Assembly (NCBI RefSeq): GCF_932294415.1
Contig: NC_065541.1
Span: 55,778,290 to 55,842,289 of the forward strand
Direction of reading: 5' to 3'
Source: Quercus robur
Lineage: Eukaryota > Streptophyta > Magnoliopsida > Fagales > Fagaceae
Length of the DNA: 64,000 bases
Made by a program: the position numbers and the translations under genes. Shown here piece after piece: positions 7,401 through 64,000 of this stretch. How positions within the stretch are numbered: position 1 is the stretch's first letter; every line of letters begins with the position of its first letter. The notes below the pieces were generated by a model. That model saw only the letters and a list, made by a program, of their open reading frames with translations, searched no databases and had not been told where the DNA came from.

Positions 7401-8109
7401 CCTAACTACAAACTCTTCAATTTTGTTCAACCCACAAACAATCAAATATAATAAATAAAGGTTAAAACACAATTTGTGTTCATGTACCATATGATATGTT
7501 TTAATTTCATTTTAAAAAAATATAGATTCAAAACCATTCACGTTCATATCTTCATCCAGCCCCTAAGACTCATTTCGCAAATTACTCGACAAGATTCCCG
7601 TATACTATGCCATAGAGGTCGCCATCTCCCATCACCCACTTGATCATGACTACAATAAAACAGCTATTGTTCCTCCAAAGTTGACCATTCATAAAGGGAT
7701 TGCTACTGTGTTGGCGAGACAAATCAAAGCCATGGCCCAAAGTATAGATCATTCTTTAAAATTTGAATGTCTTGGTCTTTGTTTAGGGCACTCATAATCA
7801 TTTATGCCCCAACACACTGCATCTACAAACTAGAAACTACAATAGAATATTAATTAGTAGACATTCGTATTGGAAATTCTTACACACCACATAATTAAGA
7901 AGTTCTATAATGTCATGAAGTCAAAGAAATCTCCCAATTAATGATAGAGATATATATATTTTTTTTGAGAAAGAATGATAGAGATATTAAATAATTAAAA
8001 CCTTCCATAGTGGACCAAATTAGAAGCTAACATCACAATGTCTCACATCACCATGAAGCACGGAGCTGTCACCCTAAATATGGCTAAAATTGTTTTTCCA
8101 CGATAAGAG

Positions 8110-8485
8110 TTAGGCTAAACTGCAAAACCCATGTCCTATGTTTCATCCAAATTCATTTCAGTTTTTTAATTTTGTGTTTGCTCATTTTTGTCCTCTAACT
8201 TTTAAGTTTATTCAATTAAGGTTGTTTCATCAACTTTTGTTATATGTTGTGATTAATTTTATAATTTTTTAAATATTTCTTCAAAATTTGTAAATAAACA
8301 AAATTAAATTAATGATTGAAAAATAATTTTCAGATTTTTGTTTTCAAAATTTTTTAACAAAAGTTGATGGAAATACCTTAATTGAATAAATCTGAAATTT
8401 AGAAGATTGAAATGAACCAAAACAAAATTAGAGGACTGAAATTAATTCTAAAAAAACTTAGAGTGGATTTTGCATTTTAGCTTAA
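8110..8485. mobile_element. MITE with ~60-bp terminal inverted repeats
   Basis: The left end TTAGGCTAAACTGCAAAACC and the reverse complement of the right end, TTAAGCTAAAATGCAAAATC, match and stay similar for about 60 bp. The AT-rich centre has no ORF. I could not settle the target-site duplication. Confidence 0.6.
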
Positions 8486-8809
8486 GAATTATATTGGCAT
8501 ACTTTGCAATGAATAATGGATAGATTGTCAAAACATAGGGACTAGATATGGATGGCAACATTGAAACAACATAGAGTCTTGATCTTCAGTAAAAATGTTG
8601 GCTTTTAAGACTTCATAGTAAAGTAGAGTTTGTCGGAAATTAGAAAAACTGGCCCATAAGGGTTTGATCGTATTGGTGAATTCATATGATGCATGGCCTT
8701 TGAAGTTTGATAGATTATCGAGAATATCAAAGATCTTTAAGTTATTTTAGGACCATAGTCAATTTTACAAATATTTTTCATAATTATCTTATGTGGCAAA
8801 TTGTGATTG

Positions 8810-8941
8810 CCCGTTTGGTACATGTGTTTAAACAACAGTTTTTAGTTTTTGGAAATACGTGTGAATGAAAAAGTATGTAAAAATACGTATAATATTGTTT
8901 AAAAACTGAAAACATGTGTTTAAACACATGTATCAAACAGG
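8810..8941. mobile_element. Small hAT-like MITE (~132 bp)
   Basis: Near-palindromic. The left end CCCGTTTGGTACATGTGTTT pairs with the right end read in reverse, CCTGTTTGATACATGTGTTT. A diverged relative of the left end lies near 2796-2850 in a DUF1997 intron. TSD not resolved. Confidence 0.65.
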
Positions 8942-10228
8942 AATGTTTGTCACTTTCAAGTTGATTTACTACTTTTTTTCCATCATCCATATCGGATAAT
9001 TGTGAAAATTGGTGTGAAATTGATTATGGTCTTAGAAATTTTCAAGAACTTTAATTGTCTATTTCAGGAAATTATCTTTTTATAGTGTTTATTTACGATA
9101 TAGTTGTATTGCCCAATCTCAACTTAGAACTGGCTCTTTCTCAAAAAAAAAAAAAAACCTTAGAACTGGCAAAAAGAACAAGGAAGTATATTTTTGGCTA
9201 AAAGAGTGCCGTTAGTTTCTTTTTCTACTTGTACACGAGGATATTTCATGAATAAAATAGCCACTGTTTTATCTAAAGATTTTTTTATATATATATAAAA
9301 AAAAAAGAAAAAGAAAAAAGAAAAAAAAAAAGCCTTCTCAGTTCTCATAGGCTATACATGTGCTCAGAGGCCTTTAAAAAGAGTTTTCATTTTTGTTTTT
9401 GTGGTTCCTTAAGAATTGGGTCATTTCAGATTATTTTATGGGTTAATTTTGGCAATATATTTGTCATTTGAGAAATTTTTTTTAAAAAAATGGCCATTGG
9501 CATTTCACCATATAATTTAAGGAATATTTAATGATTTTTACCTAAAACAATACCACATGAGATTAAATATTACATTTAAAATTAAAATGAAGAAAATTAA
9601 CGGAAGTGAAAGTGGTGAAGTAATGTGAATGCAAATTTCGTTTGTCCAAATTGTGTTATAAAACATTTGCGCGTGTGTATATATACATGTATGTATTATT
9701 AATTTATGTTTTTAAAAAAATAAATTTGAACTAGATATTAGCGATGTGTTTTTGAAAGTAAATTATTAGGGGTATTTTTGAAAATAATGAAAAGTGGACT
9801 CCAAAAAAATTATTCTAATCACACTCATAATGAAAATTATTAAATAAATTTTAAAAATGGTCCAATACTAGGAGTGCAATCTCATTATAATTTCTTCATA
9901 TTTTTTTTTTTTTTTGTTCTCATTAAATAAGAAAACTTGATGCTAAGATTCTCATAACTCAAGTGACACTTTATGATGTTTCAAACTGAAATATTTAAAG
10001 TTCAAACAATCTAATATGAAACATTAAATATCTAAAAAAAAAAAGGGATAAATTATTGCTTAGAAGTAATCCAAAAAAAATAAATTATTGCATAGAATAA
10101 GGAAATCTTTTTTTTAGTTAATCAAATTACTTTTCCCCCCTTCTCTATTCATATTGGCTTTAAATATAACAAAGTAAATTATTTTATTAAAAAATATATA
10201 ACCTTCTTTTAGGAAACATTTTGACAAT

Positions 10229-24308: not shown

Positions 24309-24911
24309 TCATGGGAAATCATAACCATGGCCACCCCCCTCCCCATATCCTTCTCCATAGCCTGAGCCGTAGCCAGAGCCAGAGCCAGCGCCTGAACCAC
24401 CACCGCCACCTCCACCTCCACCCATACCTCCTCCACCACCTCCACCCTTACCACCTCCACTTCCATATCCCCCACCACTTCCATATCCCGAGCCATAACC
24501 AGAGCCACTTCCACCTCCTTTCCCTCCACCTCCACCTCCACCACCACCACTACCACCACCTCCTCCACCACCTGCTCCACCTCCGTTCCCTCCACCAGAC
24601 CCATATCCGGACCCATAACCAGAGCCACCTCCAGACCCATATCCAGACCCAGAAGCACCTCCACCCCCTCCCCCTCCTCCTCCCTTACCACCACCTCCTC
24701 CTCCTCCTGTTGCACCATATCCAGAACCACCACCAGACCCGAACCCCGAACCATACCCGGAACCATACCCAAGGCCTGAACCACCACCTCCACCACCACC
24801 ACTGCCACCACCTCCTCCTCCTCCACCACCTAATGATCTAGCAGCAAAGGCAAGGTCCACAAAGAGTAAAACCAAGAATGCAGCACCAATCAGCAGCCTA
24901 GAGCTGGCCAT
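24309..24911 (-). CDS. Secreted glycine-rich protein (cell-wall type)
   Basis: An intronless 200-codon frame. Residues 1-23 (MASSRLLIGAAFLVLLFVDL then AFA) form a classic signal peptide with likely cleavage before ARS. The mature part is almost entirely Gly-rich blocks (runs of 5-10 Gly) alternating with GSGYGSGYGSG-type Tyr-containing repeats and a few Lys. It ends GEGYGEGGGHGYDFP. Plant glycine-rich structural proteins of this kind are exported to the wall, where Tyr residues may be cross-linked. The repetitive, C/G-skewed sequence also creates long false frames on other strands. Start, signal peptide and the single clean frame support a real gene; the exact role is unknown. Confidence 0.85.
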   Translation of the reverse strand: MASSRLLIGAAFLVLLFVDLAFAARSLGGGGGGGGGSGGGGGGGSGLGYGSGYGSGFGSGGGSGYGATGGGGGGGKGGGGGGGGGASGSGYGSGGGSGYGSGYGSGGGNGGGAGGGGGGGSGGGGGGGGGKGGGSGSGYGSGYGSGGGYGSGGGKGGGGGGGMGGGGGGGGGSGAGSGSGYGSGYGEGYGEGGGHGYDFP

Positions 24912-25080
24912 TTCTTATCTTCCAGTACTCAACGTGGGTTGATTGAGACTCAGTTATATAATTTTTTTTCTTTCGAAAAGGGTGATTGAGATAGAGAACT
25001 CTGCGTGTATAAGCACTCACTTACTATATGAGAAATGAGAAAGCAATACTTTGTGGGTGAAAAAGGCTAAGGTAGGGGTC

Positions 25081-26120: not shown

Positions 26121-27660
26121 ATATAAAAGTCTAACATAGAGTGCTTGAGCCGTAAATACAAATCACATGCAAGAGGAATTTTTTGATACATCATAAATAG
26201 GAATGAGATTTAAATCCTGAATGTATCAATTAAAAATATCAATAGTGCTTATTGACCTAAAGGTCATTAGTCATCTTCTAGAAGAATTGTACAAGCTAAT
26301 AGGATATACTCATTTATTCTATTACCAAGTTACAATAGGCTGAATCAAACTACAAATGATGTTTTTGTATTAGACTATTACCATCTCCTTCTAAATTAGA
26401 TGACAACAAGGTTGTATGAGATCATATCATAAATGCCTATGGATTAGGGAAATTCCTAGTATTTTCTAGGAATAAAGAATTAATTTTTGTATAGTTCTTA
26501 CTTGCATTAACAAGTAGCGCACTAAAACAATTTTTTATTTTTTATTTTATTTTTTTATACAAGATAGAAATTCTACTTTAGCTTAATCTAAGTGTATATG
26601 TGTGTGAATCTCCCTTCTGGAGACTTGAATCCCGGCCCTTGTCCCCCACCCCCCACTAAAACAAATTCTAAGGACTAAGGAGTACTACAGACTAATTAAT
26701 GACTAAACAAGAGTAGAAGTGGCTAATCACAATTCTAACTTGGTACTTAACAAGTGAATTCAGCCATGCATGTCATCTTCTAGAGCAATTGCACAAGCTA
26801 ATGGGATCAGGGGCGACTTTACATAGAGTTCAAGGTGGTCACAAGACCACCCTGACTTGGAAAAAAAATAAAATTATTATTTATAAATTTAAAAAATTTA
26901 TGATTTTTTTTATCTTTAAAAAAACTTTGTGACTACCCTAAATTTTTTTTAGGCCCAATGTAATTAAATTCTAGACAAAATTTGGCGACAAGCATGGTTG
27001 TAGATTAAGGCTACAACTCTATTCAATATTTTTTTATTGAACGTGAATTTTAACAAATCCACCATTTAATTACATTTTCTTTTTAATTTCTTCATACTTG
27101 CAACATTTCAAGAAGATAAAAGATCACTAGCTATGTCATCAATTAAATATTTAAATTTGAAGATTTTGTAGTCTAAAATTATACATAAAAAATAATTTTA
27201 TGGATCGAATGGCAAATAACATCCGATTAACATAAAATTTTAACGTGTTTTAAGAATATAGAGAATATGCAATTCATCGATTAGATTTTCAAAATATGTA
27301 ACAATGTTAATTCATTTAGTGAGAGTGACTATAACAAAGTTTGTAGCCAAATTTTTTTCTTAAACTTTGGTCCCTTTAACAATATATTAGGTCCTAACAA
27401 ATAAAAATAAAAATCCAAGAAAAATTTTATTTAACTAAACTTTTGAAGAGATGTAACTTGCAACATTAATAATGAGACTATCATTTAACGATTTCAAAAT
27501 AAAAAGATTTGTAGAATGAAATTGTAAGATTTTATGTATTTGCATGTTTTTTTTTTTTTTGGTCAATATTTGAAATTATCTTTTTATTAGATTTTATATA
27601 ATTTAAGTTTATTAAAGATCACCCTCAAAAAAATTCTTGGAGCTGCCACTGAGTAGGATA
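25560..27660. repeat. Tandem array, unit A
   Basis: First copy of a roughly 2-kb AT-rich unit, repeated at an offset of 2069 bp (position 25626 matches 27695). It contains a (TA)n run near 26086-26107, an internal partial repeat of the TCATCTTCTAGA..CAAGCTAAT segment (26270 and 26773), and a hAT-like insertion at its end. No gene. Confidence 0.85.
26808..27651. mobile_element. hAT-like element inside unit A
   Basis: An 844-bp element. The left end CAGGGGCGACTTTA and the reverse-complemented right end CAGTGGCAGCTCCA are imperfect terminal repeats of the common plant CAGTGGCGGA type. The 8-bp flanks AATGGGAT and AGTAGGAT agree at 6 of 8 positions. It interrupts a segment also present at 26290-26330. 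No transposase frame remains. Confidence 0.65.
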
Positions 27661-35329: not shown

Positions 35330-35533
35330 GTACGCCTTTTTTTTTTTTTTTTTCCTTCTCGTATTCTATAAATATTGTGCTTCAATTTTGAATTACCAGT
35401 TAATTCAATGTTTTTCAGCTCGAAATCTGTGGTCTGTTTGGTTCCTGAGAAAAAAAAAAAAAAAAACGAAAGAAAACGAAAAAATGAAATTGAAAATTTG
35501 AATTGGTGATTTGTATAATTGAACCAAAATAAT

Positions 35534-37540
35534 ACAACACAAAACTGCTGTATTGAATTTTGTGAAATTAGCACTTGTACTCAGTTAATTGATAGTTAGT
35601 TAGGATAAGCATTAGAGTATTGTACATTGTTGGTTAAGTCTGTTGGGCTGTGAGGAGTTGTACTCTTCTGGTTCAGTTAGTTTAGCTGGGTCATGTAGTC
35701 AAGTATAAAAGACTGTGCTGAGATTGTAAAACTGATTCAAGGAATTAGAATTCCAATTTGTTTTGGAGGCCTTGTTCCCTCAAAGAACTACCAACTGAGT
35801 GAGTGAGTGAAGTGTTAAACAAAGTTTGGACGATCAAGATACAGCAATGGAAACTAATACCCGAAGGATAGAGGAACTGGGTACTAGTGTCAAGGTTATG
35901 CAGACTGCAATCGAGGAAAGGCTACCACTACCAGCAATACAAGGATCGGGACCACAGCAAGAAGTGCCCCTTCTTGGGGCAGAAATTGTGGAGCAACCAG
36001 AACAGCATGAGGTAGGTGTATTGATACCCAAACCCATTAAGCTGGAATTGCCAAGATTGGATTTTTAGGGCCGTGTAATTGTTTAGTTATTATAACGTAC
36101 TTGAAGAAGAACAAGTCTTGACTCTTGAATGCTTCTTATCATTTAGATGATGAAGCACTTATTTGGTTTGACGATTGTGAGAGATCTTTGGATTCTTGGG
36201 AGACTTTTTTTTAGGCTAATCAAGTTAGATTTTGACCCTGCTTCATATGATAATCCTATGGAAGCGTTGACCAAATTGAGGCTTACCACAACTGTGGCAG
36301 CCTACAAAAGCCAATTGAAATATTGAGTAATAGAATTAGGAATTTAACTGAATCTCATAAGCTTAGCTGCTTCATGAGTGGGCTAAAGGATGAGGTTTGA
36401 TTGGCAGCAAGGATGCAAAATCCAAGAACCTTGAGTGCTACCTTTGGAGCTAACATTTTAAGAGGAATATTTTTCCACCTGTAGGAAAGCCTGTAAACCT
36501 TTGCAAGAAGTAATTGGCAAGCACCAATACTGGTCAAGTATGACCAGGGATGTACCTAGGTAAGGGGGCCCCTCCATCCCCCCATTTTTTTATTTATAAT
36601 AGAAGCGTAGTATATATATATATATATACAAAGAAAGTTTGAAATTTTCCCAAAATATATATTATTGCCCCCCCTCCTCCCAAAAAATTTACAAATTAAC
36701 CCATGAAATCCCACCAAAAAAAAAAAAATCCTTCATGGCTCCATACCTTTTCTCCAGCTCTACCAAGAACAACCACAATACAATCAAAAATCCTCAATTT
36801 TTACCCATTTGGTTTTTTCTAGCTCAGTATGCCCCTCTCACCTCTCATTCTTCCTCCACTCCACCAGTCACCTCCGTTAATCGATCCTCACCGCTGCACG
36901 CCAACAAGTCCCATAGGCATGGGTTGGAATAATTGTGTACGTGTCTCCATTTCTCCTGTATGGACTCATCACTCATGATTCTCATGAATTTCTGATCTCT
37001 CTTCTCTAATATCTATCCTTTGTGTGTGCATGTTGTCTCTGCGCTTTTATAATTTTTATGAAAGCCTGTACCTGCCTCTCTCTGATATGATGATGATATC
37101 TCCTCTGAGTGAATGTGTTCTGTGATGAGTAACTAACGTGTTGATGTGTTAGGTCCTTAGTACAACACAACACTGCTGTATTGAATTTGTGTAATAAGCA
37201 CTCATACTCAGTTAGTTGTTTGTTTGTTTGTTTTTTTGATAAGTTTTTATACAATTTTTTGGTAAGTGTTAGTTGTTAGTTAGTTAGGATAAGCATTAGA
37301 GTATTGTACTTTGTTAGTTAGTCTGTTGGGCTGTAATGAGTTGTACTCTTGTGGATCAGTTAGTTAGTTGGGTCATGTAATAAAGTATAAGACTCTGCTG
37401 AGACTGTAAAATTGATTCAAGGAATAAGAATGTAATTGTTTTGGAGGTTGATTCCCTTGAAAGGATCATAGGAGGCCTAGTTCCCTCGAAGAACTACCAA
37501 CTGAGTGATTGAGTTGTTAAGATCATTGAATCTTAACAGG
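35534..37540 (+). mobile_element. Broken Ty3/gypsy retrotransposon with both LTR remnants
   Basis: Two direct repeats, roughly 35534-35815 and 37160-37530, share long stretches (for example GATAAGCATTAGAGTATTGTAC and AAGAACTACCAACTGAGTGA). They are the LTR remnants. Between them lies a gag-like region from about 35826 to 36540. The LTRs differ at many sites and the right one holds an insertion, so the element is old. It is broken at several points and no polymerase region remains. A separate G/C-run repeat seems inserted around 36550-36990. It lies in the kelch 5' UTR intron. Confidence 0.65.
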
Positions 37541-49734: not shown

Positions 49735-50074
49735 TTACAACTTGGAGATAAGTTGTTGTTTGCTTTGTGAAACCAGATCCTTTCTAAAGATCTTGCCTGC
49801 AGCTGATCTTGGAATAGCACTAGTGAAACTAACTCTTCTTACTTTCTTGTATGGAGCCACCTGAAATTTCCATATACACAAATTAGGGGGAAAAAAGAGA
49901 GAGTTCAGCAATGGCTACTGAGTAAAGAGGACAGAGTTAGAGCCATGACAAACCTGGCTGGCTACGAATTGAATTACTTGGTCTTCTGTGAGTTCAGAAC
50001 CAACTGCTTTTACCACGTATGCCATTGGTATCTGCCCTGCTTCATCATCTTCAACCCTGCATTTTTTTTTGGTT

Positions 50075-50112
<38 letters not shown>

Positions 50113-52698
50113 CTAGAGTGAGAGAGAAGTGTTAAAGGTAACACACGGTATAACTGCTGCATCCATAATAGTGGGATGACTCAAAAGTATTGCTTCCAAT
50201 TCTGCTGGAGCCATCTGCATACACATTGAGCACCGATCAAGTAATTAGTTTACTATATCGTGTTGTCCAATAATTATTTTATGCTTTTATGCTTTTGAGA
50301 ATAAAAATCCTCTGTCTCACTCTGAGTATTCTACATTATGTTCAATCATTCAGAGTTTGTCGCACTTTTATTTATTTATTTATTTTTTATAAAATAATTG
50401 AAATTAACCCTGTTTGTATTTGTGCTTAGTACCATATATTTAGTTCACTGCCAATCTCAAGCCTGGGTAAAGGAGGAGCGTTGTGATAGGTTGACAATTC
50501 AGACTAAAATTTAGTCATTCTCTTATTATATGGATCCAATATGGATAAACATTGGGGCTCTTTCTAGAATTAATATGACTGGCCCATTTTAATCTATTGA
50601 GGATACATAATTGACTCCAAATTTTGAGGCTAAGGCTATGTTATTATTATTGTTATAAAATAATTGAAATTTAAAAAAAAATCAAAAGGTTGGACACTAA
50701 CAATGAGATAAAGGATTATCATTAGTTGATGTGAAAATATATGCATCATTCTTCTCACAGCATGTGAATCTTACATGATACACATTGTAAGAAGGAGGGT
50801 CCATATATTAGATGTATGAAATACCTTTTCAAAGTTTGGATTAGTTAAAACTTAAAAAGACTAAATTTGTGCAAAAATTTCAAGTTACCTGATACCCATT
50901 ATGTTTGATGAGCTCCTTAATCCTATCCACAATGAAAATAAATCCATCCCCATCAATATAACAAAGATCCCTTGTTTTCAACCACCCATCAGAATCAATT
51001 GTTGCTGAAGTAGCTTCCACATTTCCCAAATAACCTTTCATAATAGTAGGGCTCTTTAGCCACAGCTCTCCTTCCCTATATGGTGGCAAAGCCTTTCCAG
51101 TTTCAATATCCACCACCTTAGCACAGAAGCTTGGAACCAACCTTCCTGCTGACCCCGAACGAGCTTTAGCATCATTGTCTGACACAAAAAATGTCGCTGC
51201 TACACAGCTTTCTGATAGTCCATATCCTTGCCTTGTCTCCACCCATGGAAACCTCTCTCTGAACCCATCACCCAGTTCTTTGCTCAAAGGTGCAGCCCCT
51301 GAGCCCACCCTTCTCAACGAAGATAACTCAGACTCAGACTCAAACCCTGCTTTGCTTGTGTACTTTACTAGCCCAAGTATCACTGGTGGCACAGCAGGTA
51401 TGTTACTAACTTTGTGTGCTTTAATTGCGTGAAGCATAGCTTGGAACTCAAACTTTTGCATCAAAACCGTAGTGGTTCCCGAACAAAACAATCCTAGTGC
51501 AAAAAACGCAAGCCCGTAGATGGGAAACGTAGGAATGAAACACAAAAACACGTCGTTTTGAGCTGAGGTTACGTCCACAGACCATCTCAGTAATGTCATA
51601 ACGGCAATGAAATTTGCATGCGTTAGAATTACACCTGTTAAAATAAAAGAAAAAAAAATTTAGAGAGCAGAAAGAAATTTGCATGAGTTAGAATTACACC
51701 AGTTAAAATAAAAGAAGATAAAAGATTTAGAGGAAAAAAAAGGATTTACATGATTTGCACGTACATAACCAAAAACTTTTTGTGATTACATTTTTACTGT
51801 TCTAAATTGTGTATTACCAAAACCCAATATAACACATATAATTATATACATAATAAATAAGGCATATTAGCCATTGATTAAGCAAGGAAATTGATATGCG
51901 TTGATTCCTTGATTCTGGACATGATAAAGATACATGACTAAGATACATATACAGTAACATATAAAGGACAAATATAATACTAAGTCATAGTGCATATACA
52001 GTAATACAAACGATACCTTTGCTTGTCCCAGTAGTCCCAGAAGAGTATAGTATAGCTGCTGTGTCTCACTGAGCCAACTTGGGTTGTGGAAACTCTGACT
52101 GATCACAGCATTCAATCAACTCTTCAATGGGCAAAGAATCGTTGTTGGGATTTCTTGATGTTAAAATAATAGGCACCCCAGTTGGGACTAATTTGTGAAG
52201 CTCTTCAGGTGCTGAAATAGCTAGCTTGGCTCTCGAGTCACGTACTTGCTTGACTATTTCTGACTCGGTGTTAAGTGGATTGGCTGTGGTTAGTATTGCA
52301 CCAATTGAGAACACAGCAAGACATATGGTTGGATACAACAGCGAGTTTGGTGACAAGACAAACACCACGTCACCTTTTCGGACCCCCAGAGCATGGTACA
52401 AACCTGATGCAAGTGAACGAATTGATCTTTGGAGTTGTGCATAGGTGACCTGTTGATTAGGGGAAGAGTCTATGAGTGCAATTTGTGACTCTGCTTGGTG
52501 GGGATGTGGGAATTGTGATAACACATATGTGGCAGTGTCAAGGTCTGGCATAGTGGGGATTTTTTGGCGTTCATCAAGTTTATCAAGGGAATGGTAGATT
52601 CTGGATTGCGGGTCGAACCCACTTTTCGGAACATGTGGTGGTTGAGGGTTGCCAGAGACTTCTTTGGTGGTGGTGTTCCATGCCTCTTCTGCTGACAT
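49735..52698 (-). pseudogene. 4-coumarate:CoA-ligase-like pseudogene
   Basis: Five exons (52017-52698, 50889-51634, 50147-50214, 49954-50056, 49735-49860) line up exactly with the intact paralogue at 59901-62701. Exon 1 has an in-frame TGA at codon 211 (52066-52068), where the paralogue has TCA (Ser), so a spliced message would give 210 residues, ending before the AMP-binding loop [10 protein letters not shown]. Other signs of relaxed selection: Pro replaces the conserved His in F-H-IYGL (residue 265), LSES replaces LTE(S), and KTRD replaces KTGD in the nucleotide-binding motif. The catalytic Lys (AAGKIFRK) and the terminal peroxisomal signal SKL are still readable. All splice sites remain canonical, so decay is recent. 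Readthrough or a short product cannot be excluded. Confidence 0.85.
51609..51715 (-). repeat. 65-bp duplication of an intron 3' splice site
   Basis: Positions 51609-51650 and 51674-51715 are near-identical copies, 65 bp apart, of the intron 1/exon 2 boundary of the pseudogene. On the minus strand the exon-adjacent copy reads TTTTAACAG|GTGTAATTC; the outer copy reads TTTTAACTGGTGTAATTC, so its AG acceptor is lost. The paralogue has one copy. Confidence 0.8.
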
Positions 52699-53269
52699 TT
52701 CTTGATGAATTTGCTAAGCTGTAGGAAATGTGCTTAGACAAAACCTTGGGGTGACAAACTAATGTTAATTGTTGTGGGTTATATATGGAAAAAATCTAGT
52801 ACTGAAAAAATTTACACTTCACCAAAACTATAATGTGGAAGAGTGTGTGACTTGTGGAAAAAAAAATTAAAATTAAAATAGTAGTTTTATGTATAAATGA
52901 TAAGTAACCACTCATAATCTGTCATATCAGAATTATGATAAAAAATTGAGAAATAATTTATAGTTCTGTACCCATTCTTGTATATACTTTGCTATTGTCT
53001 TCTGCTTTGCTACTGTCTTTTATGTTAGACAAGATCTAGCATTGACATTGATTAGCACGTCAATTAGTGTATGTGATGACTAGGCGATCAAGGCATGGTG
53101 TCTTGTAATTAGATGAATCGTACTTGATACCTTAATTATCCTTTTTATCCAATAAGGCATAAGCAACCGAACAAACAAATCACAAAACAATATATAAGAA
53201 AAACATATCAGGTGCAAATAAGAGAAAAAAGACAATCTTATACAGCTTTTGTTGAAGTTGAAACATATT

Positions 53270-53790
53270 GTAATATTTTTTTAATTGGATGTGAATTTTG
53301 ACAAATCCATCATAAGATTATATCATCTTCATATATTCTCTATACTTGCAAACTTTTGAGGTGATCAAAGATTAATAGTCATGTCATCAATCAATTGTTT
53401 AAATTCAAGTTTTTGTAGTTTAAAATAGTGTATAAAATACAAGTTTATAGATAGAACTATAAACAACATCCAATTGACATGAAAATTGGCATGAATGTTA
53501 AAAACATACAGTTCATGAAATTCAACGGTAAGATTTTAAAAATATGAATTTTATAATAAGTTTTTGAGTAGTGTATCATTACTTAGAGTTACACTAGGTG
53601 TAACTTTAAGCAATGCTACATCACTCAATATTTTTTAGTTGGATGCAAATTTTGACAAATCTACCGTTAGATTGACATGAATGTTAAAAACATATAGATC
53701 ATGGAATTCAACGGTGGAATTTTCAAAATATGAATTTTATAACAAGTTATTAAGTGGTGTAACATTACTTAGAATTATATTAGGTGTAAC
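53270..53790. repeat. Dispersed AT-rich repeat, partly in tandem
   Basis: Two related segments (53275-53600 and 53625-53790) share TTGGATG.(A)AATTTTGACAAATC and ACTTAGA.TTA.A.TAGGTGTAACTT. The same sequence type occurs in the hAT-like element at 26808-27651 and at 45610-46060, so it is a multi-copy element. Confidence 0.5.
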
Positions 53791-53804
53791 TTGAACCTAA
53801 CCTT

Positions 53805-53838
<34 letters not shown>

Positions 53839-54307
53839 AATATTCTTTTAATAGTATGTTAATTACCTAAGACTTATTACTTTGATCTTTTTATGCCTCT
53901 TTTGGGATTGTAAATGTGTAATTTTTAATAAATTATTAGTTGTTATTTTATTAACAAAGCCTTGTAGTTTAATTGATACTTCTCCGGTCTCCATGTACAC
54001 TTGTAGCTTAATTGTTATCTCTCCAAATACCAAACGCAAAGTGCTTGGAGGTTTAGGAAGGAAAGAGTAAGTATTTATTTATTTATTTTTAAATGTCATC
54101 TTTTATTCACATTAAATTTTAGGTTTAAAATGTTCGACATGTAAAATTTAGGAACAAGTAGTATATTCTGGCTCATTTTCATTCTCAAAAAAATAAAAGA
54201 AGAAGTATATTTTGGCTTTTTTGATGATAAATATTTATAAGAAAATTAATGAAGGCCAGATCAGAAGAGGGCCCTAAACAGTTATATACTGTTTCACTTG
54301 ACAAACC

Positions 54308-54942
54308 GGCAAAAATGGCCCATTACCATCAATTTTGGAAATAATTTGCCCAAAAACACTGTTTTTGAACTATATAGCAATGTACCACTTTTTCGGGTAC
54401 TTGAGCTTGGTGAGCTCGAGTACCATGTTTTTTTAATCCACTGTCGCCCCATATTCAAGGATCCCTATAGTGGCGTTTTTAAGCCCTATAGTGACGTTTT
54501 CGGGCCCTATAGCGGCGTTTTCAAGCCCCATACTTAAGGGGCCCTATAGTGACGTTTTCGGGCCCTATAGCGGCGTTTTACTGCAAAATTTTTTTTATAA
54601 GTCCCCATAACAGGTTCAAGGGGCCCTATAGTGGCGTTTTTAATCCCTATAGTGACGTTTTTGGGCACTATAGCGGCGTTTTCCTGCAAATTTTTTTTAT
54701 AAGTCCCATAACAGGTTCAAGGGGCCCTATAGTGGCGTTTTTGGGCCCGAAAACGTCACTATAGGGCTTAAAAACGCCACTATAGGGCTCCTTAAATATG
54801 GGGCAATAGTGGATTAAAAAAACATGGTACTCGAGCTCACCAAGCTCGAGTACCCAAAAAAGTGGTACATTGCTATATAGTTCAGAAACAGTATTTCTGG
54901 ACAAATTATTTCCAAAATTGATGGTAATGGGCCATTTTTGCC
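54308..54942. mobile_element. Foldback Mutator-like element with internal CTATAGYG minisatellite
   Basis: Ends GGCAAAAATGGCCCATTACC form long inverted arms (about 230 bp). The 9-bp flanks TGACAAACC and TGTCAAACC differ at one base, typical of Mutator-like insertion. Inside are many units of the form CCCTATAGTGGCGTTTT, alternating CTATAGTGGCG, CTATAGTGACG and CTATAGCGGCG. GAGCTCGAGTACC palindromes lie on both arms. No transposase frame. Confidence 0.85.
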
Positions 54943-55723
54943 TGTCAAACCTATGGGGAAGCTCAAGATGGGTGTGAGTCTGACCTGTTACAAGAGAAAA
55001 GCCCAATGTATCAGGTTATGGGCTGCTACGTAACAAAGCACCAATTTCTCAAAATTGTTTAAAAACGCTATCAATGGGATTCTCCAATGGACTTAAAACG
55101 TCTAACCCATTTTATAGTCTGATGATCCCTTAGAGATTGCAAACGGGACTGCTCTCTCTCCTCAACTACCCAAAGCTTGCATGTTGCTATCGTTTCTCCA
55201 TGTACAGTTGCAACGTCAAAATTCAACTTAGACCCAATAAACCAAAAATGGAACTCAACCACCACCATTGCCGTAATCATCACCAACCCAACTCTGCAAA
55301 TCATGGAGTCATCATGCACGCGCCGGAGGCTCCCACACTGGCTTCATCACTCACACATTACCCGTGAGTCCGGTCTTAGCGTTTTGTGCTCTAGCTGAGC
55401 TTACGCCAATGATATTCAACACGCCCATGTGCTTTTTTCTCAGATACTTATATGTGGAAAACTATGATCATAGGCTACTGTAAAGCCAAATATTCTCGTC
55501 GTGGGGTTTTCCTATTTTCGTCAAATGATTCGAGAAAACGCATCGAAATGGAGCTTCGTTTTTGCGCCCTAGGCGTGCGAACATTTTTTTGTGTAGTTTT
55601 TAGTCGGAGAATCAGTTCATTGTTGGGTTCGGACTTTTGAGGATGGGTTTTTGGATAAGGATTTGCTTGGGCGAATTGGGTTGAATTTTGCACGTGAAGT
55701 GTTTGATCAAAGTTTTGTGAGAG

Positions 55724-57303
55724 GGTAGTTACAGGTTAGGTAGGCCATCATTTTCTGAGGAAAGTTTCGGTGGTGTAATAACATTAAGAAACTCAAAAAA
55801 AACAATGAACGTCCCTTTTGAGAGAGACAGAGAGCGTCATTTTGGTCTTGGACAAGCCACCCTTGACGAAGCTGAGTCTGATATTGAAGAGGATTCCATT
55901 GTTAATGGGTTTGCTTCTATAACTCTATCCAGAGAAGATTTAGCAAGGATTAGAGCCCCTTGGGCCTCATCTTTGATAATCAAAACCTTGGGCAGAAGTG
56001 TGGGGTTCATGTTCCTGTCTTCAAAGATTAGAGTTATGTGGAATCCTTCAGGTAGGCTAGACTGCATAGATTTGGGTCATGATTTTTTTCTCATTAAATT
56101 TGAGCTTCAAGAAGATATTGATAAGGTGCTAAAAGGGGTTCCATGGTTTGTGAGTCAGCACTTCCTAGCTATTCGTCAATGGGAGCCTTATTTTAAGGCT
56201 TCAGCTGCCACTTTCTCAAGTGTTGCGGTTTGGATTCGTCTCCCTGAATTGCCAATTGAGTATTACGAGCCTGAGGCTTTGAAAGAGATTGGAGCGGCCA
56301 TAGGTCATGTTTTACTTATTGACGCTCATACTATTAATGGACCTAGAAGGAGATTTGCCAGGTTATGCGTCCAAGTGAATTTGGAGCAACCGTTGATCAA
56401 AACGATTATGATAGGAAAGTTTGCTCAATCAGTTATGTATGAAGGGCTTAATGCTCTATGCTTCTCCTGTGGCAGAGTCGGGCATAAAAAGGACGTGTGT
56501 CCCTATCTAATCAGGGCACCTCCTTCACCTCCTACCCAGAAAAATACACCCTCTCAGGCTGACCCAGTGCCATCAGTGGATCAACAGGGTGATCAAAAGG
56601 AGTATGAACCTTACGGGCAGTGGATGGTTGCCACGCGGTGTAAGAAACCCCGAAAGCTTAGTCCAAAGGTTCAACTAGGTGCGAAAATTCGAGTTACTGA
56701 TGTTCAGGTAACAACCTCATCTGAGGGTGTTGAGGCTTCTACAAAAGAATGGGTAGCGGTTGCTTGGCAAAAACCACCTCCTGGTTGGGTAAAACTTAAT
56801 ACGGACGGATCTTCTTTTGGGAATCCAGGTCAGTCTGGTGGAGGGGGTCTTCTGAGAGATGCTGAGGGAAGATGGATCATAGGCTTTGCTGGAAATTATG
56901 GGAATCTAAACAGTATAATGGCTGAGCTATGGGCCCTTAGAGATGGTTTACTTCTAGCTAAAGACCAGGAAATTGAAAACTTGATAGTGGAAATTGATGC
57001 TTTAGCTGTTGTTCACCTTATGCACAACTCCACTGTTAATCATTCACTTGAGCCTTTGCTCACTGAATGCAGGAACCTTTTGAAGACTTTTTCCAATATG
57101 CAAATTGAGCATACTTTTCGGGAAGCCAACCATTGTGCTGATGCATTGTCTAAGCTTGGGAACAGTAGTGATGTTGTTTATGGTTTATTCCAATCTCCAC
57201 CATCTGTGGTGGAGCAACTAGTAACCCTTGATAAGAAGGGAGTAGCTTGTAATAGACTTGTGTCTCTTAATTAATGTTATGCTTCTATTTCACCAAAAAA
57301 ATG
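55724..57303 (+). mobile_element. Compact LINE derivative with 14-bp target-site duplication
   Basis: The 14-mer AAGTTTTGTGAGAG occurs at 55710-55723 and again at 57304-57317, bounding a 1580-bp insert in PPR-like sequence. The insert begins GGTAGTTACAGG, carries one 489-codon frame and ends with a short A-rich tail (CACCAAAAAAATG). A variable-length TSD plus an A-rich 3' end is the hallmark of LINE target-primed insertion. Endonuclease and reverse transcriptase regions are absent, so it must have moved in trans or derives from an internally deleted parent. Confidence 0.85.
55805..57274 (+). CDS. DUF4283 - CCHC knuckle - RNase H fusion ORF of a LINE derivative
   Basis: An intact 489-residue frame. 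Residues about 35-200 are DUF4283, the nucleic-acid-binding N-terminal part of plant LINE ORF1 (SLIIKTLGRSVGFMFLSSKI, DDFFLIKF-like and KGVPWFVSQHFLAIRQWEP). A CCHC knuckle, CFSCGRVGHKKDVC, lies near 218-231. After a Pro/Gln-rich linker, residues about 325-470 are an RNase H domain of the RVT_3 type with all four acidic residues in place: NTDGS, MAELWAL, EIDAL and NHCADALSK. In a full LINE these domains lie at opposite ends, with endonuclease and reverse transcriptase between. The frame is unbroken. It may be a young insertion or a retained domesticated protein; the first is favoured by the intact TSD. Confidence 0.8.
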   Translation: MNVPFERDRERHFGLGQATLDEAESDIEEDSIVNGFASITLSREDLARIRAPWASSLIIKTLGRSVGFMFLSSKIRVMWNPSGRLDCIDLGHDFFLIKFELQEDIDKVLKGVPWFVSQHFLAIRQWEPYFKASAATFSSVAVWIRLPELPIEYYEPEALKEIGAAIGHVLLIDAHTINGPRRRFARLCVQVNLEQPLIKTIMIGKFAQSVMYEGLNALCFSCGRVGHKKDVCPYLIRAPPSPPTQKNTPSQADPVPSVDQQGDQKEYEPYGQWMVATRCKKPRKLSPKVQLGAKIRVTDVQVTTSSEGVEASTKEWVAVAWQKPPPGWVKLNTDGSSFGNPGQSGGGGLLRDAEGRWIIGFAGNYGNLNSIMAELWALRDGLLLAKDQEIENLIVEIDALAVVHLMHNSTVNHSLEPLLTECRNLLKTFSNMQIEHTFREANHCADALSKLGNSSDVVYGLFQSPPSVVEQLVTLDKKGVACNRLVSLN

Positions 57304-57847
57304 AAGTTTTGTGAGAGATGTTACTTGGACCTCGATGATGGATGGAGATATGGTGCATAGTTCTGCGGAGAAGGCTTTGGAATTGTTTAATCCGATGTTA
57401 TTGAGTGATGTTGAGCCAAATGAGGTTACTATCATTGTTTCTTTTTCGATATGCTAGCTGAAAAAGGATTTAACTATTTGGAAAAGCATCCGTGGGTATA
57501 TAAAAAGATGAAAGTAAATTATAGACTGAATTTGCAAAATACCATATTATATTTAATTGAATTTGGAAAGCTGGATTATAACCAAAAATCAAAACGGGCA
57601 AAAAATTATTTGATGAATGGAAGGTCAAATGATCAGAACCATGATTTATGTTTCCTTCTGCCTGGCTGCAAAATAATACTACCTTAGCTGAAAGCAGGAT
57701 AGCTATACTCCACTCGTACACTTTTTATTACTATTATTATTATATTTATTATTTTGCTAAACCTTTTCATTACTATTATTTTATATAATTTGGTAGTTAT
57801 AAATTATAATAAGAAAAGTGCTAAAGATATAAGCTATTTTATAATAA

Positions 57848-57930
57848 TGGAGGAGGATGAATTTAAACCTTAATTCTCCTAATAAAGGGGTGCAAGTCAT
57901 GCCGTTGAGCTATAAAGCTTTTAACAACTT
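57848..57930 (-). mobile_element. SINE relic
   Basis: The minus strand reads AGCTTTATAGCTCAACGGCA followed by a diverged box B (GGTTTAAATTC). The box A match is good, box B is weak. Confidence 0.45.
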
Positions 57931-57989
57931 TGATCCGCATTTTTTTGAGTCCTTATTTATGAACCCATTTGGCATTATTGAATAAAGTT

Positions 57990-60900
57990 AAAACTTTTAG
58001 CTGAGAGAAATGGCAACGCATAAAGGTTGAAGCTTGGTGCCTAGAAACTTAAGCTCAGGCAGATTACAACAATTGCTATGTGAAGAACCTATGGTGATAT
58101 TCGGTCATGGTCAACAAGCATAATCTTGGAATTGCTTACCAACGTTTGACCACTGTTAAGATCTTCTAATGGAGATGACACAATCATGATACAAAAACAT
58201 AGTCTATTAACAAATCCTTGGAATCCACAACCTGTTCGTTGTTTTTTGTTTTTTTTTCCCCATATTTGTTCCTTGTGGATGTAACAGTACCAACTAATTC
58301 TTACATCTTCTAAAAAAAAACTAATTCATACATATTCTAGGATTTCATTACTAATATCTTGGTAGAATTTCGTTCATTGACCTAATATAGGCCGAATAAG
58401 TTTCACTTGAAGGTATAACAATTCATATTAATAAGTTGTGGTGTCTACGTATTTAATTTGGAAGATCTCTGATACATCATGGTCCTCTGCATGTTATGCT
58501 TTGATTTTCATCTTTTTTATTATTAAAACTTTTATAGGTTAGGCACTGGTTCTTAATTTGTATTTTCATATAAAGTGCATGTCTTTTCTTCCCTGCTATA
58601 ATGGTTGCTGCAAAAACAACAAATAGTCAATCACCATGCAAAAAGCCCAAATCTATCAAATAAATTCAGGGGAAGGGTAAATAAGTAATAAAGAATGGTT
58701 ACCCGAGACTTGGATGCAAATTCAACAAAGAATGGTGAGGATAAACAGAACAAGAGCAGAGAGATGGCAATGTTGTGAAGGAGTACAGAACGAATGATCT
58801 AAGAAAACAAAGGAGATATATATCTATTGGGAAGAATAGGCTAGTATTTTGGTCCTTAAGTATAAAGTTGGGGCTTTTTGAGATTTTCTCAAATAAGAAA
58901 TTTTCAGTAACTAAAGATTGCAAATCGTGTGATTTTGAAAAAGTACCTAGAAGTTGCTTATTCTAAAATGTGAAAATCTGCAGTTTTAAAAATCACAATC
59001 TCACTGATATCGCATGGACCAACATTTTAAAATATTACATTTTGGCTAGAATCACGCATTTGGTTCCCAAATCATGGGCCAAACAGACACTATGTTAAAC
59101 AATCATGTGCATTACTGATTAGTTCTTACATATTTCAAAATTTCATTACTCATATTAGTAGAATCTCTGTTCATTGACCTAATATGGGCTCCTAAAGGTA
59201 TAACATCGTATTAATAACTCGGATGGTATCCACGTATATAATTTGAAAGATCTTTGATACATCATGGTCCTTTGCATGTTGTGCTTTATTTTTCATTAAA
59301 AAAAAATTCTATAGGTCAAGCACTAGTTCTTAATTGCATTTTAATATAAAATGCATGTATTTTCTTCCTTGCAATAATGGTTAATGTAAAATGAGACATG
59401 ATGTAAATTCTATGCCAAATGAAGAAAATGGTTATCCACATTCTAATTGCCAATTCATATATTATGACTTATGAATAACTGTCTACTACTTTCCCATGAA
59501 TCCGTTATTTTTTCTCTATTATTTATAGTTGACCACGTCATAATTGTGGCAAAAGTTGCGGTCACATGCTTTTTCAACATGCTTATAATGATGTATCACA
59601 TATTTTTTAAACAACCAAGTTATAATACTCTCAATCCATCAATTAACCAATGTAATCTCTTAATAATCGCAGTTTATCCTGAACTGTTTTACATTAGAAT
59701 TATTTGTCACATTCTGGAACCGCAAATTAGGCAGGCAAACGAAAGTTGTTTGAACTTTATTAATACAAACCATTATACAGTTTGACCTCTAAAGGCCCAT
59801 CTTCTAGACTGCTGAAAATATCATGGCTGATCAATTCATTTCTTGAAAATCTTATTTAGGTTTGAGCAGCAAAGAAAATAAAAAAGAAGAGAGAAAACTG
59901 TTACAATTTGGAGATAAATTGCTGTTTGCTTTGTGAAACCAGGTTCTTTCTCAATATCTTGCCTGAAGTTGACCTTGGAATTGCACTAGTGAAACTGACT
60001 CTTCTAACTTTCTTGTATGGGGCCACCTGAAAGTTCCACATACACATAAATTACAAAAGAGTTTAGTGATGGTTACTAAAGAAAGAAGACAGAAGAGCCA
60101 TGACAAACCTGGTCAGCCACAAATTTAATCACTTGGTCTTCACTGAGCTCAGAACCAACTGCTTTTACCACGTATGCCATAGGTATCTGACCTGCTTCGT
60201 CATTTTCCACCCTGCAAAATTTAATATTTTTGTTAGAGAAACATAGAGAGAGTTAGAGTGAAAGAGAAGTGTTAAAATAACATACGGTATAACGGCTGCA
60301 TCGAGAATTGAAGGATGACTCAAAAGTATTGCTTCCAGTTCTGCTGGAGCCACCTGCATGCATACACATTGAGCACCAGTCGAGTAATCAGAATACCATT
60401 TGGTATCCTTTCTAGTTGTTTCATTTAGCACCAACCAAGTCAAATTTTGCTTTCCAAAGTAGGAGTAATTAAGCCATTAATCCCTTAGTTTGGACCATTA
60501 ATTTAACAAAAAAAAATGCTAAAGCTACTGGTAAATCTTTTCTAAAAAATTTACAAACTTACATGACAGTGAATAGAATGTTATCACTTCAATAACATAA
60601 TAAATGAATGTCTAAATTTCTTTTTTTATAATTGATAACACGTCAATTTGTGAGACTTATGTAGCAAAATTTATTATATCCCTAGTATCACAAAAGTTAA
60701 AAACTGAATTAGTGCTAAAATTTTAAGGTACCTGATACCCATTATGTTTGATGAGCTCCTTAACCCTATCCACAATGAAAAGAAACCCATCCTCATCAAA
60801 ATAACAAATATCACCGGTTTTCAACCACCCATCTGAATCAATTGTTGCTGCAGTAGCTTCCACATTTCCCAAATAACCTTTCATAATAGAAGGGCTCTTC

Positions 60901-62930
60901 AGCCACAGCTCTCCTTCCCTATAAGGTGGCAAGGGCTTTCCTGTTTCAGTATCAACCACCTTAGCACAAAAGCTTGGAATCAACATTCCTGATGACCCCG
61001 AACGAGCTTTAGCCTCTTTGTGAGTCGGCGAAAACGTTGCTGCTCCACAGATTTCTGTTAGTCCATATCCTTGCCTTAGCTCTACCCATGGAAACCTTTT
61101 TCTGAACACATCACCTACTTCTTTGCTCAATGGTGCAGCCCCAGTGGTCACCCTTCTCAACGACGATAACTCAGACTCAAACCCTGCTTTGCTCGTGTAC
61201 TTTACTAGCCCAAGTATCACTGGTGGCACAGCTGGTATGTTATTAACTTTGTGTGTTTTAATTGCTTGAAGCATAGCATGGAACTCATACTTTTTCATCA
61301 CCACCGTAGTAGTTCCCACACAAAACAATCCTAGCGCGAAAAAAGAAAGGCCGTAGATATGAAATATAGGAAGGAAACACAAAAACACATCGTTTTGAGC
61401 TGAGCTTACGTCCACAGTCCATCTCAGAAATGCCACATTGGCGATGAAATTTGCATGTGTTAGAACTACACCTGATTAAATAAAAGAGAATAAATGATTA
61501 TCACGTGGTTTGGTCCACAGGGAAAAAACTAGAACTACACACAAAAACTAGTGCACGCAGTGTGTTTTACACAAAATACACTGAAAACATAAAAGCGATT
61601 GTATTTGGGTAGTGCATATTTGCACACATTATGTGCAATAAAGATGGCCCTGGTCCAAAAGCTTGAGCCTACACTAAAATATGCTTAGCGACTATATTTT
61701 TAGTATTTGAATTGTGAACTGTCAAAATCCAATAGAGGGTATATATATATATTCAATAATTAATGCAATGGGTTATTATTATGCTTGAATTACGGAGTGT
61801 TGATATGTCTTGATTCAAGGCATAATAGTCAAAAAGTCTTGAACTTGATTGAAATTGTTTGATATTTTCGACAAAAACTTTTAACTCTCTCATTGTAACT
61901 AATGAATTATTAAAAAAAATGACATATATATCAAGTCTTTGTTTTAATATTTATGCTAGAAACAAATAATAAGTCATAATAAAACATGTGATTGTACTAA
62001 CAAGACGCACCTTTGCTTGTCCCGGTAGTCCCAGAAGAGTATAGTATAGCTGCTGTGTCTGACTGAACTAGCTTGACTTGTGGCAACTGATATAAATGAT
62101 CAGAGCTTTCAATTAATTCTTCAATGGATAAGGATGACGAATCTTTGTTTGGTTTTCTTGATGTTAGAATTGTAGACACCCCAGTTGGGACCAATTTGTG
62201 AAGCTCTTCAGGTGCTGAAATTGCTAGCTTGGCGCCTGAGTCACTTACTTGCTTGGCTATTTCTGACTTGGTGTTAAGTGGGTTGGCTGTGGTTAATATT
62301 GCACCAATTGAGAACACTGCAAGGCATATGGTTGGGTACAAGAGCGAGTTTGGTGACAATACAAATACCACATCACCTTTACTGACCCCAAGAGTATGGT
62401 ACAAGCCTTTAGCAAGTGAACGAATTGATCTTTGGAGCCATGCATAGGTGAACTGCTGATTTGTGGCTGATTCTATGAGTGCAATTTTTGACTCTGCTTG
62501 GTGGGGATGTGGGAAATGAGATAGCACATATGTAGCAATGTCAAGGTCTGGCCTAGTGGGGATTTTATGTTGGTCACCAAGTTTATTAATCGAATAATAG
62601 ATTCCGGTTTGTGGGTCAAACCCACTTTTCGGATAGTGTGGCAGTCCAGGGTTGCCGGAGTCATCTTTGGTGGTGGTGTTCCCTGCTTCTGCTGCTGACA
62701 TTTCCTGATGAATTTGCTAATAAGATGTAGGAAATGTGCTTTAGATAAAACCTCGGGTTTGTGAGTGTGAATGTTATTGATGTGGGTTAAATATGGTTTA
62801 CTATTGGCTTTTGTGTTAGCCAAGCTCCAACATTGGCATTGATTAGAACAAGAATAGGACGATTTGGACCAAGTCATGGTGTCTTGTAAGTAGATGATTC
62901 GAATTTGATACCTTAGTTAATCGTAGGGAT
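57990..62930. repeat. Segmental duplication, unit 2 (kelch 3' end plus intact 4CL-like gene)
   Basis: It starts with TAGCTGAGAGAAATGGCAACGC, a diverged copy of the last codons and stop of the kelch gene, followed by its 3' flank, and runs through the 4CL-like gene to about 62930. A piece of the spacer (58310-58600) is repeated again at 59100-59400 (CATTACT.ATATTAGTAGAAT, TTCATTGACCTAATAT, ACATCATGGTCCT). Confidence 0.85.
59901..62701 (-). CDS. 4-coumarate:CoA-ligase-like enzyme, peroxisomal (5 exons)
   Basis: Exons 62011-62701, 60732-61471, 60286-60353, 60109-60211 and 59901-60026 join in phase to 575 residues. It belongs to the ANL (acyl-adenylating) superfamily, activating a carboxylic acid with ATP and loading it on CoA. 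Visible motifs: P-loop [10 protein letters not shown] (222-231), FHIYGL (His268), [50 protein letters not shown], and the catalytic Lys557 in SGKILRK. It ends SKL, a type 1 peroxisomal signal. The sequence is closest, from memory, to the clade of OPCL1 and 4CL-like 5/7 rather than true 4CL, so the substrate may be a jasmonate precursor, a fatty acid or a cinnamate; this cannot be decided here. A decayed copy lies at 49735-52698 in the same orientation. Confidence 0.9.
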
Positions 62931-63070
62931 CCGTCTTTTATGTTGTGTTTAATGGTTCAAAATGACAATCACATGTCTTGTCAGTTTTGTAATGCTGCAG
63001 CTAAATTGAAAGCAAGAACAAATAAAGTGGTGATTAGATGAGCTGAAAATGATTGGAAATAACGTATTGA

Positions 63071-63682
63071 GAGCATTCACGTTGGTGGAGATATTTTTTT
63101 AGCTATTTGATACTATAAAAAGTTAATTTATTTATTTTACTTACTTACTTTACAAAACATCCAGCATAAGTGAATTTATTTTAGCTTTCAACACAATAAA
63201 ATAATATAAACATCACAATAAAATTATATATTTACTACAATAGTAGTGTGAACACACAAATAAAAAAATAAAAAAAAAATATATATATATATATATATAA
63301 GAAAAGAAAAGAATATAAGAATAAAAGAACCATAGCAGTGTGAAAGCACAAACTATATATTGCAGTGTAAACTGTAAACACTATATATAAAAAAAAAAAA
63401 AAAAAAGTGTGAACGAAAAAACAATAGCAGTGTAAACGAAGAGAAATGAGAATAAAAATGAGTAAAATAATAAAAAAATAGTGTGAATGCACAAATAATA
63501 AAAAAAAAGTTTCTTTTTACCTTTCCGCTACAGTGCACTGTTAAAAGTAGCTGTGCACTATAGCTGTGGAGCTAAAAAAAAATAGTTTGTCTCTACCATT
63601 GTAGGGCACATTTTGGTATTTGACTACTTGGTGATGCTAAAAATAATAATATAGTTATTTAGCACTACCAATGTGGATGCTT
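63071..63682. mobile_element. DNA-transposon relic, GAGCATTCA family, copy 2
   Basis: The left end GAGCATTCACGTTGGTGGAG and the reverse-complemented right end AAGCATCCACATTGGTAGTG match each other and copy 1 at 21862. The interior is A/T-rich with repeated GCAGTGTAAAC/AGTGTGAA segments and no transposase. Confidence 0.6.
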
Positions 63683-63901
63683 TGACATATGACATGTCCA
63701 TGTGCATCTCACAACTCATAATATTATTGTCAGAGTCAGACAATGTAAGGACAAGAGGCTTTGTTTTTGATCTTTTATAATAAAATATTTATAATTAGTC
63801 TCAAAGATATATCTAGCTAGCCCCAAGAATTCAATTGGCATAAAGATGTTACAAAAAATAAAAATAAACCAAAATAGGGTAGGTCGGTTGGTCCATGATA
63901 A

Positions 63902-64000
63902 GAACATTCACATTGGGAATAGTATATGCCATATATTGGTTCAATTTAGCATAAAAGCCCAAAACAACCTTTACATTCGGACTTGTAAAAAGCTACTATT
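63902..64000. mobile_element. Start of a third GAGCATTCA-family element
   Basis: GAACATTCACATTGGGAATA at 63902 matches the terminus of the two other copies. The element is cut by the window end, so its right end is not visible. Confidence 0.4.

Follow-up and report, generated by a model that had tools for sequence, protein, structure and literature searches.

The window analysed here, a 64,000-nt stretch of DNA at C37:55778290-55842289, was searched against a genome of 786 Mb in 42 contigs. It holds a 1,580-nt insert that lies within a decayed copy of a PPR-type gene family and carries one long reading frame (Table 1). Two AMP-binding gene copies, 4CL-like by eye, flank the insert on the minus strand at 50880-52713 and 60723-62716, and the AMP-binding match was checked on one piece of each copy. 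Elsewhere in the window, direct repeats at 35530-35808 and 37158-37514, mostly 81-95% identical and ~1.63-1.71 kb apart from start to start, look like a short LTR element (TRIM-like), and an open frame on the minus strand at 24309-24914 encodes a glycine-rich protein with, by eye, a signal-peptide-like start. A search of positions 50000-64000 against Rfam gave no match at gathering scores.

Table 1. The insert, its parts and its target site (positions within the window).
Feature	Positions	Strand	Basis
Left flank, decayed PPR-type gene-family copy	55620..55723	+	Frame of the emptied site open across the joint; genome paralogues
TSD, left copy, 14 bp	55710..55723	+	Perfect repeat of 57304-57317
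Inserted element, 1,580 nt	55724..57303	+	Flanked by TSD; absent from 6/6 paralogous target sites
5' segment, no homology found to related LINEs	55724..55838	+	Other DNA matches begin at query nt >=117
Fusion reading frame, 489 aa, ATG to TAA	55805..57274	+	First codons overlap the unmatched 5' segment; open from 55721
DUF4283 (aa 73-189), from LINE ORF1	56021..56371	+	Pfam PF14111, E 7.8e-30
CCHC zinc knuckle (aa 212-234), C-x2-C-x4-H-x4-C	56438..56506	+	zf-CCHC_4 below cut-off; ligands from translation
Deletion-junction region (aa ~300-318)	56702..56758	+	Alignments to relatives; exact base not resolvable, relatives too diverged
Archaeal-type RNase H (aa 332-450)	56798..57154	+	RVT_3, E 3.1e-25; PDB 4e19
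3' tail, 7 A then TG	57295..57303	+	Sequence; TTTCACC directly before
TSD, right copy, 14 bp	57304..57317	+	Perfect repeat of 55710-55723
Right flank, remainder of PPR-type copy	57318..57448	+	PPR_2 on translation of the emptied site; paralogues

The repeated word, AAGTTTTGTGAGAG, is identical in its two copies and stands in direct orientation. By itself, a 14-bp repeat is not decisive, because the window holds 28 pairs of 14-mers spaced 1.5-1.7 kb apart: 26 within one LTR-like repeat, one at 26772/28307, and the TSD. Retroposition is firm because six unoccupied PPR target sites run through the insertion point. These were found by removing the insert and one repeat in silico and searching the genome with the emptied site. 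All eight candidates were scored; two were the window's own flanks and six were unoccupied paralogues, 83-89% identical and continuous over the insertion point. The duplicated word occurs once in each paralogue, exactly in three (L051, L052 and L054), with one difference in L053 and with two in L049 and L050. The frame of the emptied site reads across the joint, at aa 32/33, as a PPR-type protein, and the Pfam family PPR_2 matched its translation at aa 34-71 with E 1.5e-6 and 28.6 bits (cut-off 30), a stretch lying entirely on the right side of the joint. The window's PPR copy is decayed: a stretch of ~30 nt is absent on the left, an early stop stands on the right, and in the alignment the copy has 3 nt fewer than the paralogues immediately to the right of the joint.

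The target is a copy of a PPR gene family, and the event carries the marks of target-primed reverse transcription. Specifically, the marks of L1-type retroposition present are the 14-bp TSD, the empty sites and the 7-A tail. An earlier note on this DNA had described an insert bounded by a perfect 14-bp duplication and ending in an A-rich tail. The direct repeat and the unoccupied target sites bear out the duplication; the tail holds good as a short A-run at a LINE 3' terminus, but its length is just seven A plus TG. The TTTCACC before it resembles the 3' terminus of related LINEs, in which TTACC or TTTACC is followed by an A-run, and the DNA of the element's 3' end aligns with L009, L013 and L014 as far as the A-run.

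The reading frame combines parts of both LINE proteins. At the junction region, homology to ORF1 stops and homology to the C-terminal part of ORF2 starts. The knuckle scored below the Pfam cut-off for zf-CCHC_4 (E 1.4e-5; 25 bits against 27), and its ligands, C219, C222, H227 and C232, were read from the translation. RVT_3 is the Pfam name of an RNase H-like family, and ribonuclease H1 (PDB 4e19) was the sole solved structure matched by sequence (E 7e-4). The catalytic residues D334, E374, D398, R439 and D446 are present; this is the D-E-D-R/H-D set, in which R marks the archaeal-like type according to the relevant part of PMC5348765. The earlier note had all four acidic RNase H residues and the CCHC ligands kept, and the translation agrees (D334, E374, D398 and D446). 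Neither an endonuclease nor a reverse transcriptase catalytic domain was among the five Pfam families matched by the frame, and ~4.6 kb are absent relative to the element's relatives, so the loss of both enzymes reported earlier was confirmed. Structure prediction from the single sequence with no alignment gave a mean pLDDT of 36 and was set aside. Going by the names of its domains, the protein, if translated, could use DUF4283 and the knuckle to bind RNA and could cut RNA:DNA hybrids.

The relatives of the element in this genome are LINEs with a DUF4283-containing ORF1 and an ORF2 that ends in an archaeal-like RNase H. DUF4283 in ORF1 is conserved among LINEs of diverse plants, as stated in a section of PMC11288735; together with the PPR copies, the DUF4283 LINEs point to a plant genome. 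Of the features of Ta11-like L1 elements, we found an ORF1 with DUF4283 and CCHC and a C-terminal archaeal-type RNase H with R439; the endonuclease and reverse transcriptase are absent. The source would most simply be an L1-type plant LINE with an archaeal-like RNase H (Ta11-like), a placement made from the ORF1 and RNase H parts, the element having no reverse transcriptase.

We fetched 20 loci of 10 kb around the best relatives (20 of the 39 other DNA matches), together with shorter loci for the remaining 19, each comprising the match and ~1.5 kb on the expected partner side. Both halves were present on one strand, and separated, in 17 of the 20 larger loci, with only a 34-aa RNase H piece in L010; L013 and L026 had the RNase H half only. 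Fused halves occurred in none of these 20 loci, and the two halves stood together, within ~1.5 kb, in none of the 19 shorter ones. At L016 (C38:44450150-44460050, 7793-9255), an ORF1 part and an RNase H part lie ~130 nt apart in opposite orientation, which looks like either an inverted LINE copy (twin priming?) or two adjacent pieces. Among the other 86 ORF1-half matches, 38 were followed within 15 kb, on their own strand, by one of the listed RNase H matches, and 48 had no listed RNase H partner (best 87 of 9,648 and best 150 of 7,564 candidates). None of the 38 pairs was fused. The gaps between their halves ranged from 3,301 to 10,393 nt with a median of 4,658 nt, so the block missing from the element is ~4.6 kb. 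Two related LINEs, at C2:80692188-80703737 and C38:21478547-21490345, have their halves ~10.2 and 10.4 kb apart, compared with 4.7 kb, perhaps through nested insertions. At another locus, L048 (C5:17645000-17646904), ORF1 runs in frame directly into the start of the ORF2 endonuclease (MNILVWNC...) in an open frame of 996 aa.

Separate trees were built for aa 13-280, with 18 relatives, and for aa 319-486, with the 19 relatives whose coverage sufficed. In the ORF1-half tree, the element groups with L009, L014 and L010 with moderate support (0.81), and in the RNase H-half tree it groups with L009, L014, L013 and L026 (support 0.96). Protein identity to L009/L014 is 65/71% in the first half and 63/62% in the second.

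The first ~115 nt of the element, including GGTAGTTACAGG, lay outside every one of the other 39 scored DNA matches (best 40 of 165 candidates), and LINE homology of the frame begins at about residue 10. Comparison of the segment with seven canonical ORF1 N-termini gave no alignment clearly above shuffles in any frame; the observed score was reached by 260, 146 and 44 of 500 shuffles in frames 0, 1 and 2, respectively. An ORF1 N-terminal motif resembling SYKDKLVGAIPGAFEQA was found in 14 of the 20 fetched loci (two of the 20 have no ORF1 half), and both this motif and the usual ORF1 start are absent from the element. The description of one frame joining the N-terminal part of ORF1 and its knuckle to the ORF2 RNase H was right as to the open DUF4283-CCHC-RNase H frame, but the canonical ORF1 start is gone. 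GSYR at the extreme 5' end was considered as a mark of truncation inside ORF1 and rejected, its alignment being no better than shuffles. The segment is possibly a diverged 5' UTR, the result of a further small deletion, or the product of a template jump to another RNA.

We consider it very probable that the element is a single internally deleted retrocopy of a Ta11-like plant LINE, a one-off at one locus. A LINE transcript, its cDNA or the source copy would have lost ~4.6 kb, and with it the endonuclease, the reverse transcriptase and the C-terminal part of ORF1. Target-primed reverse transcription of the resulting short RNA would then have placed a copy in the decayed PPR-family gene, a complete LINE presumably providing the enzyme in trans. 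Such helper LINEs look available, because in at least six relatives a stop-free ORF1 match is paired with an RNase H match whose open frame is at least 1,589 aa long. The insertion would have left the 14-bp duplication and the short A-tail, and the joint would by chance have kept the frame, so that DUF4283, the knuckle and the RNase H came to stand in one frame of 489 aa. This in-frame joint is probably owed to chance, a random joint keeping the frame about one time in three, and to recency, and the element presumably has no function for the host. Against a one-off copy stand the closest candidate parent among the scored DNA matches, whose 73% DNA identity is unexpected for a young copy with an intact frame, the unmatched 115-nt 5' segment, and the moderate support for the ORF1 half (0.81).

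The deletion may go back to a template jump, to splicing or to a deletion in the source copy, its timing being presumed in each case; the three are indistinguishable, since the divergence of even the nearest relatives prevents the breakpoint from being placed. Splicing, by which the missing 4.6 kb would be the intron of a LINE transcript that was then retroposed (SpIRE-like), is one route to the single deleted retrocopy and not exclusive of it. One large block was lost and the 3' end was kept, as splicing would have it, and part of PMC5860796 reports human LINE RNAs that were spliced and then retroposed. By eye, no clear GT-AG pair was seen at the junction in the nearest relatives, a weak test given that they are only ~67% identical. 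We regard this route as fairly unlikely.

The one-off reading departs from the earlier note, which had proposed a mobile family, a "parasite of a parasite", and had held that it would be refuted by a lack of other copies and of transcripts, with a junction unique to this locus. On copies and junction the outcome went against the family, which is not borne out: among the scored matches, a second copy or a fusion was present in none of the other 39 DNA, 86 protein and 149 RNase H matches. The matches scored were the best 40 of 165 (DNA), 87 of 9,648 (protein) and 150 of 7,564 (RNase H) candidates; the DNA search passes over very common words, and copies may be missing from the assembly, but a true second copy would be expected among the top-ranked candidates. 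In the DNA search (best 40 of 165), matches to the first half stopped by query nt 791 and those to the second half began at nt 1041 or later, and the other matches were 65-73% identical. In the protein search (best 87 of 9,648), the other 86 matches finished by aa 313, and only the element itself spanned the junction. Top protein identities were 70% for the ORF1 half (best 87 of 9,648) and 62% for the RNase H half (best 150 of 7,564). The absence of close 3' ends among the scored matches weighs most, as active LINEs scatter many copies truncated at the 5' end. We also rejected the idea that the element was copied from a host gene with introns and this fusion, as no near-identical exons were found among the scored matches.

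In light of these searches, it is improbable that the element belongs to a true HAL1- or SIDE-like family of non-autonomous LINEs that code for protein, one so low in copy number that the genome keeps a single member. Such a family would account for the intact frame of 489 codons, and the lineage is old, judging from synonymous saturation and a dS of 1.0-2.8 for the remaining 13 RNase H-half relatives; a full-length parent was likewise not found among the scored DNA matches. However, the scored matches include no second copy, and their identity to the element's 3' end is at most 73% in DNA and 62% in protein; a LINE-driven family normally leaves truncated copies. Derivation from a LINE that lost its middle, a trait of SIDE- and HAL1-like families, is seen in the trees and the paired gaps, whereas several copies with shared ends, a shared junction and TSDs of their own were not seen among the scored matches.

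We think it quite improbable that the element is the last copy in the genome of an old non-autonomous LINE lineage whose DUF4283-RNase H fusion protein was itself selected, for example for packaging LINE RNA and trimming RNA:DNA hybrids while the enzyme of another LINE reverse-transcribes. Synonymous sites are saturated against all 18 relatives in the ORF1 half and against six of 19 in the RNase H half, and the other 13 gave dN/dS values of 0.10-0.39. This says that the lineage evolved under constraint as a LINE, and it bears on the time before insertion; on the time after insertion, dN/dS against relatives carries no information, the synonymous sites being at or near saturation. The chance that a random substitution creates a stop in the 489-codon frame is 0.037; if 0 to 0.15 indels per substitution are assumed, the probability that a neutral copy has kept its frame falls to 5% at 5.5% to 1.1% divergence. 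An intact frame is therefore expected of a recent insertion, and the perfect TSD, the tail and the decayed PPR target suggest that the insertion was recent. From the common node, the element's protein branch measures 0.26-0.27, against 0.27 and more for its nearest relatives, and is thus no longer than theirs.

A mosaic origin of the element, with a switch of template between RNAs of two LINE families, is very unlikely. LINE reverse transcriptases are known to template-jump, as described in a portion of PMC3414825, and the ORF1-half grouping has only moderate support (0.81). A mosaic is not favoured because both half-trees (0.81 and 0.96) place the element with the L009/L014 clade. That the element is a host-retained (domesticated) DUF4283-RNase H gene is not supported and is extremely improbable: the stop-free frame, its kept catalytic and zinc-ligand residues and a protein branch no longer than those of the nearest relatives would suit such a gene, but the perfect TSD, tail and decayed PPR target suggest a recent insertion. 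Neutral decay would also leave the frame open with a probability of 5% or more until divergence reaches 1.1-5.5%, a limit that varies with the indel rate assumed.

Read as a single deleted LINE retrocopy, the element can be set beside several known systems. It shares with SIDEs (Persaeus/Zenon CR1, PMC6740152; R2, PMC3414825), in the parts of these sources that describe them, the loss of the LINE middle and reverse transcriptase with LINE ends kept, and insertion by LINE machinery. SIDEs form multi-copy families that are not described as coding in those same parts (PMC6740152, PMC3414825), whereas the element is a single copy with an open fusion frame. SIDEs also keep LINE ends, and the 5' end of the element matches no related LINE found. 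HAL1 (half-L1) of mammals is, like the element, a non-autonomous L1 derivative that retains ORF1 sequence; in the portion of PMC5753468 that covers it, HAL1 encodes only ORF1p, whereas the element joins a shortened ORF1 to the RNase H of ORF2 and is present in one copy. With the SpIREs of human L1, it has in common a retroposed LINE RNA minus a block. The part of PMC5860796 on SpIREs describes them as generally evolutionary dead ends and as spliced within the 5' UTR or from the 5' UTR into ORF1, whereas the loss in the element runs from ORF1 into ORF2. Ta11-group plant L1 elements share the C-terminal ORF2 aRNH with its D-E-D-R-D residues, as set out in a section of PMC5348765, and differ from the element, which has neither endonuclease nor reverse transcriptase. 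L1TD1, a domesticated mammalian L1 gene, is likewise a LINE-derived open frame outside a complete LINE, but it is an established mammalian gene in the relevant part of PMC4161310, and the element is known here from one locus in one genome.

The surveyed portion of the literature on DUF4283/RNase H proteins and on non-autonomous or internally deleted LINEs describes no element in which ORF1 is fused to RNase H. The locus offers a clean case, with empty target sites still in the genome, of the way internal deletion and retroposition can yield a new domain combination in one step. Extending from this one locus, some annotated plant "DUF4283/RNase H" fusion genes may be single deleted LINE copies. 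The element resembles SIDEs, HAL1 and SpIREs as a deleted copy dependent on LINEs, without the multi-copy trait that defines a family. Were the same junction to be found in related species, it would be, to our knowledge, the first protein-coding HAL1-like element of a plant.
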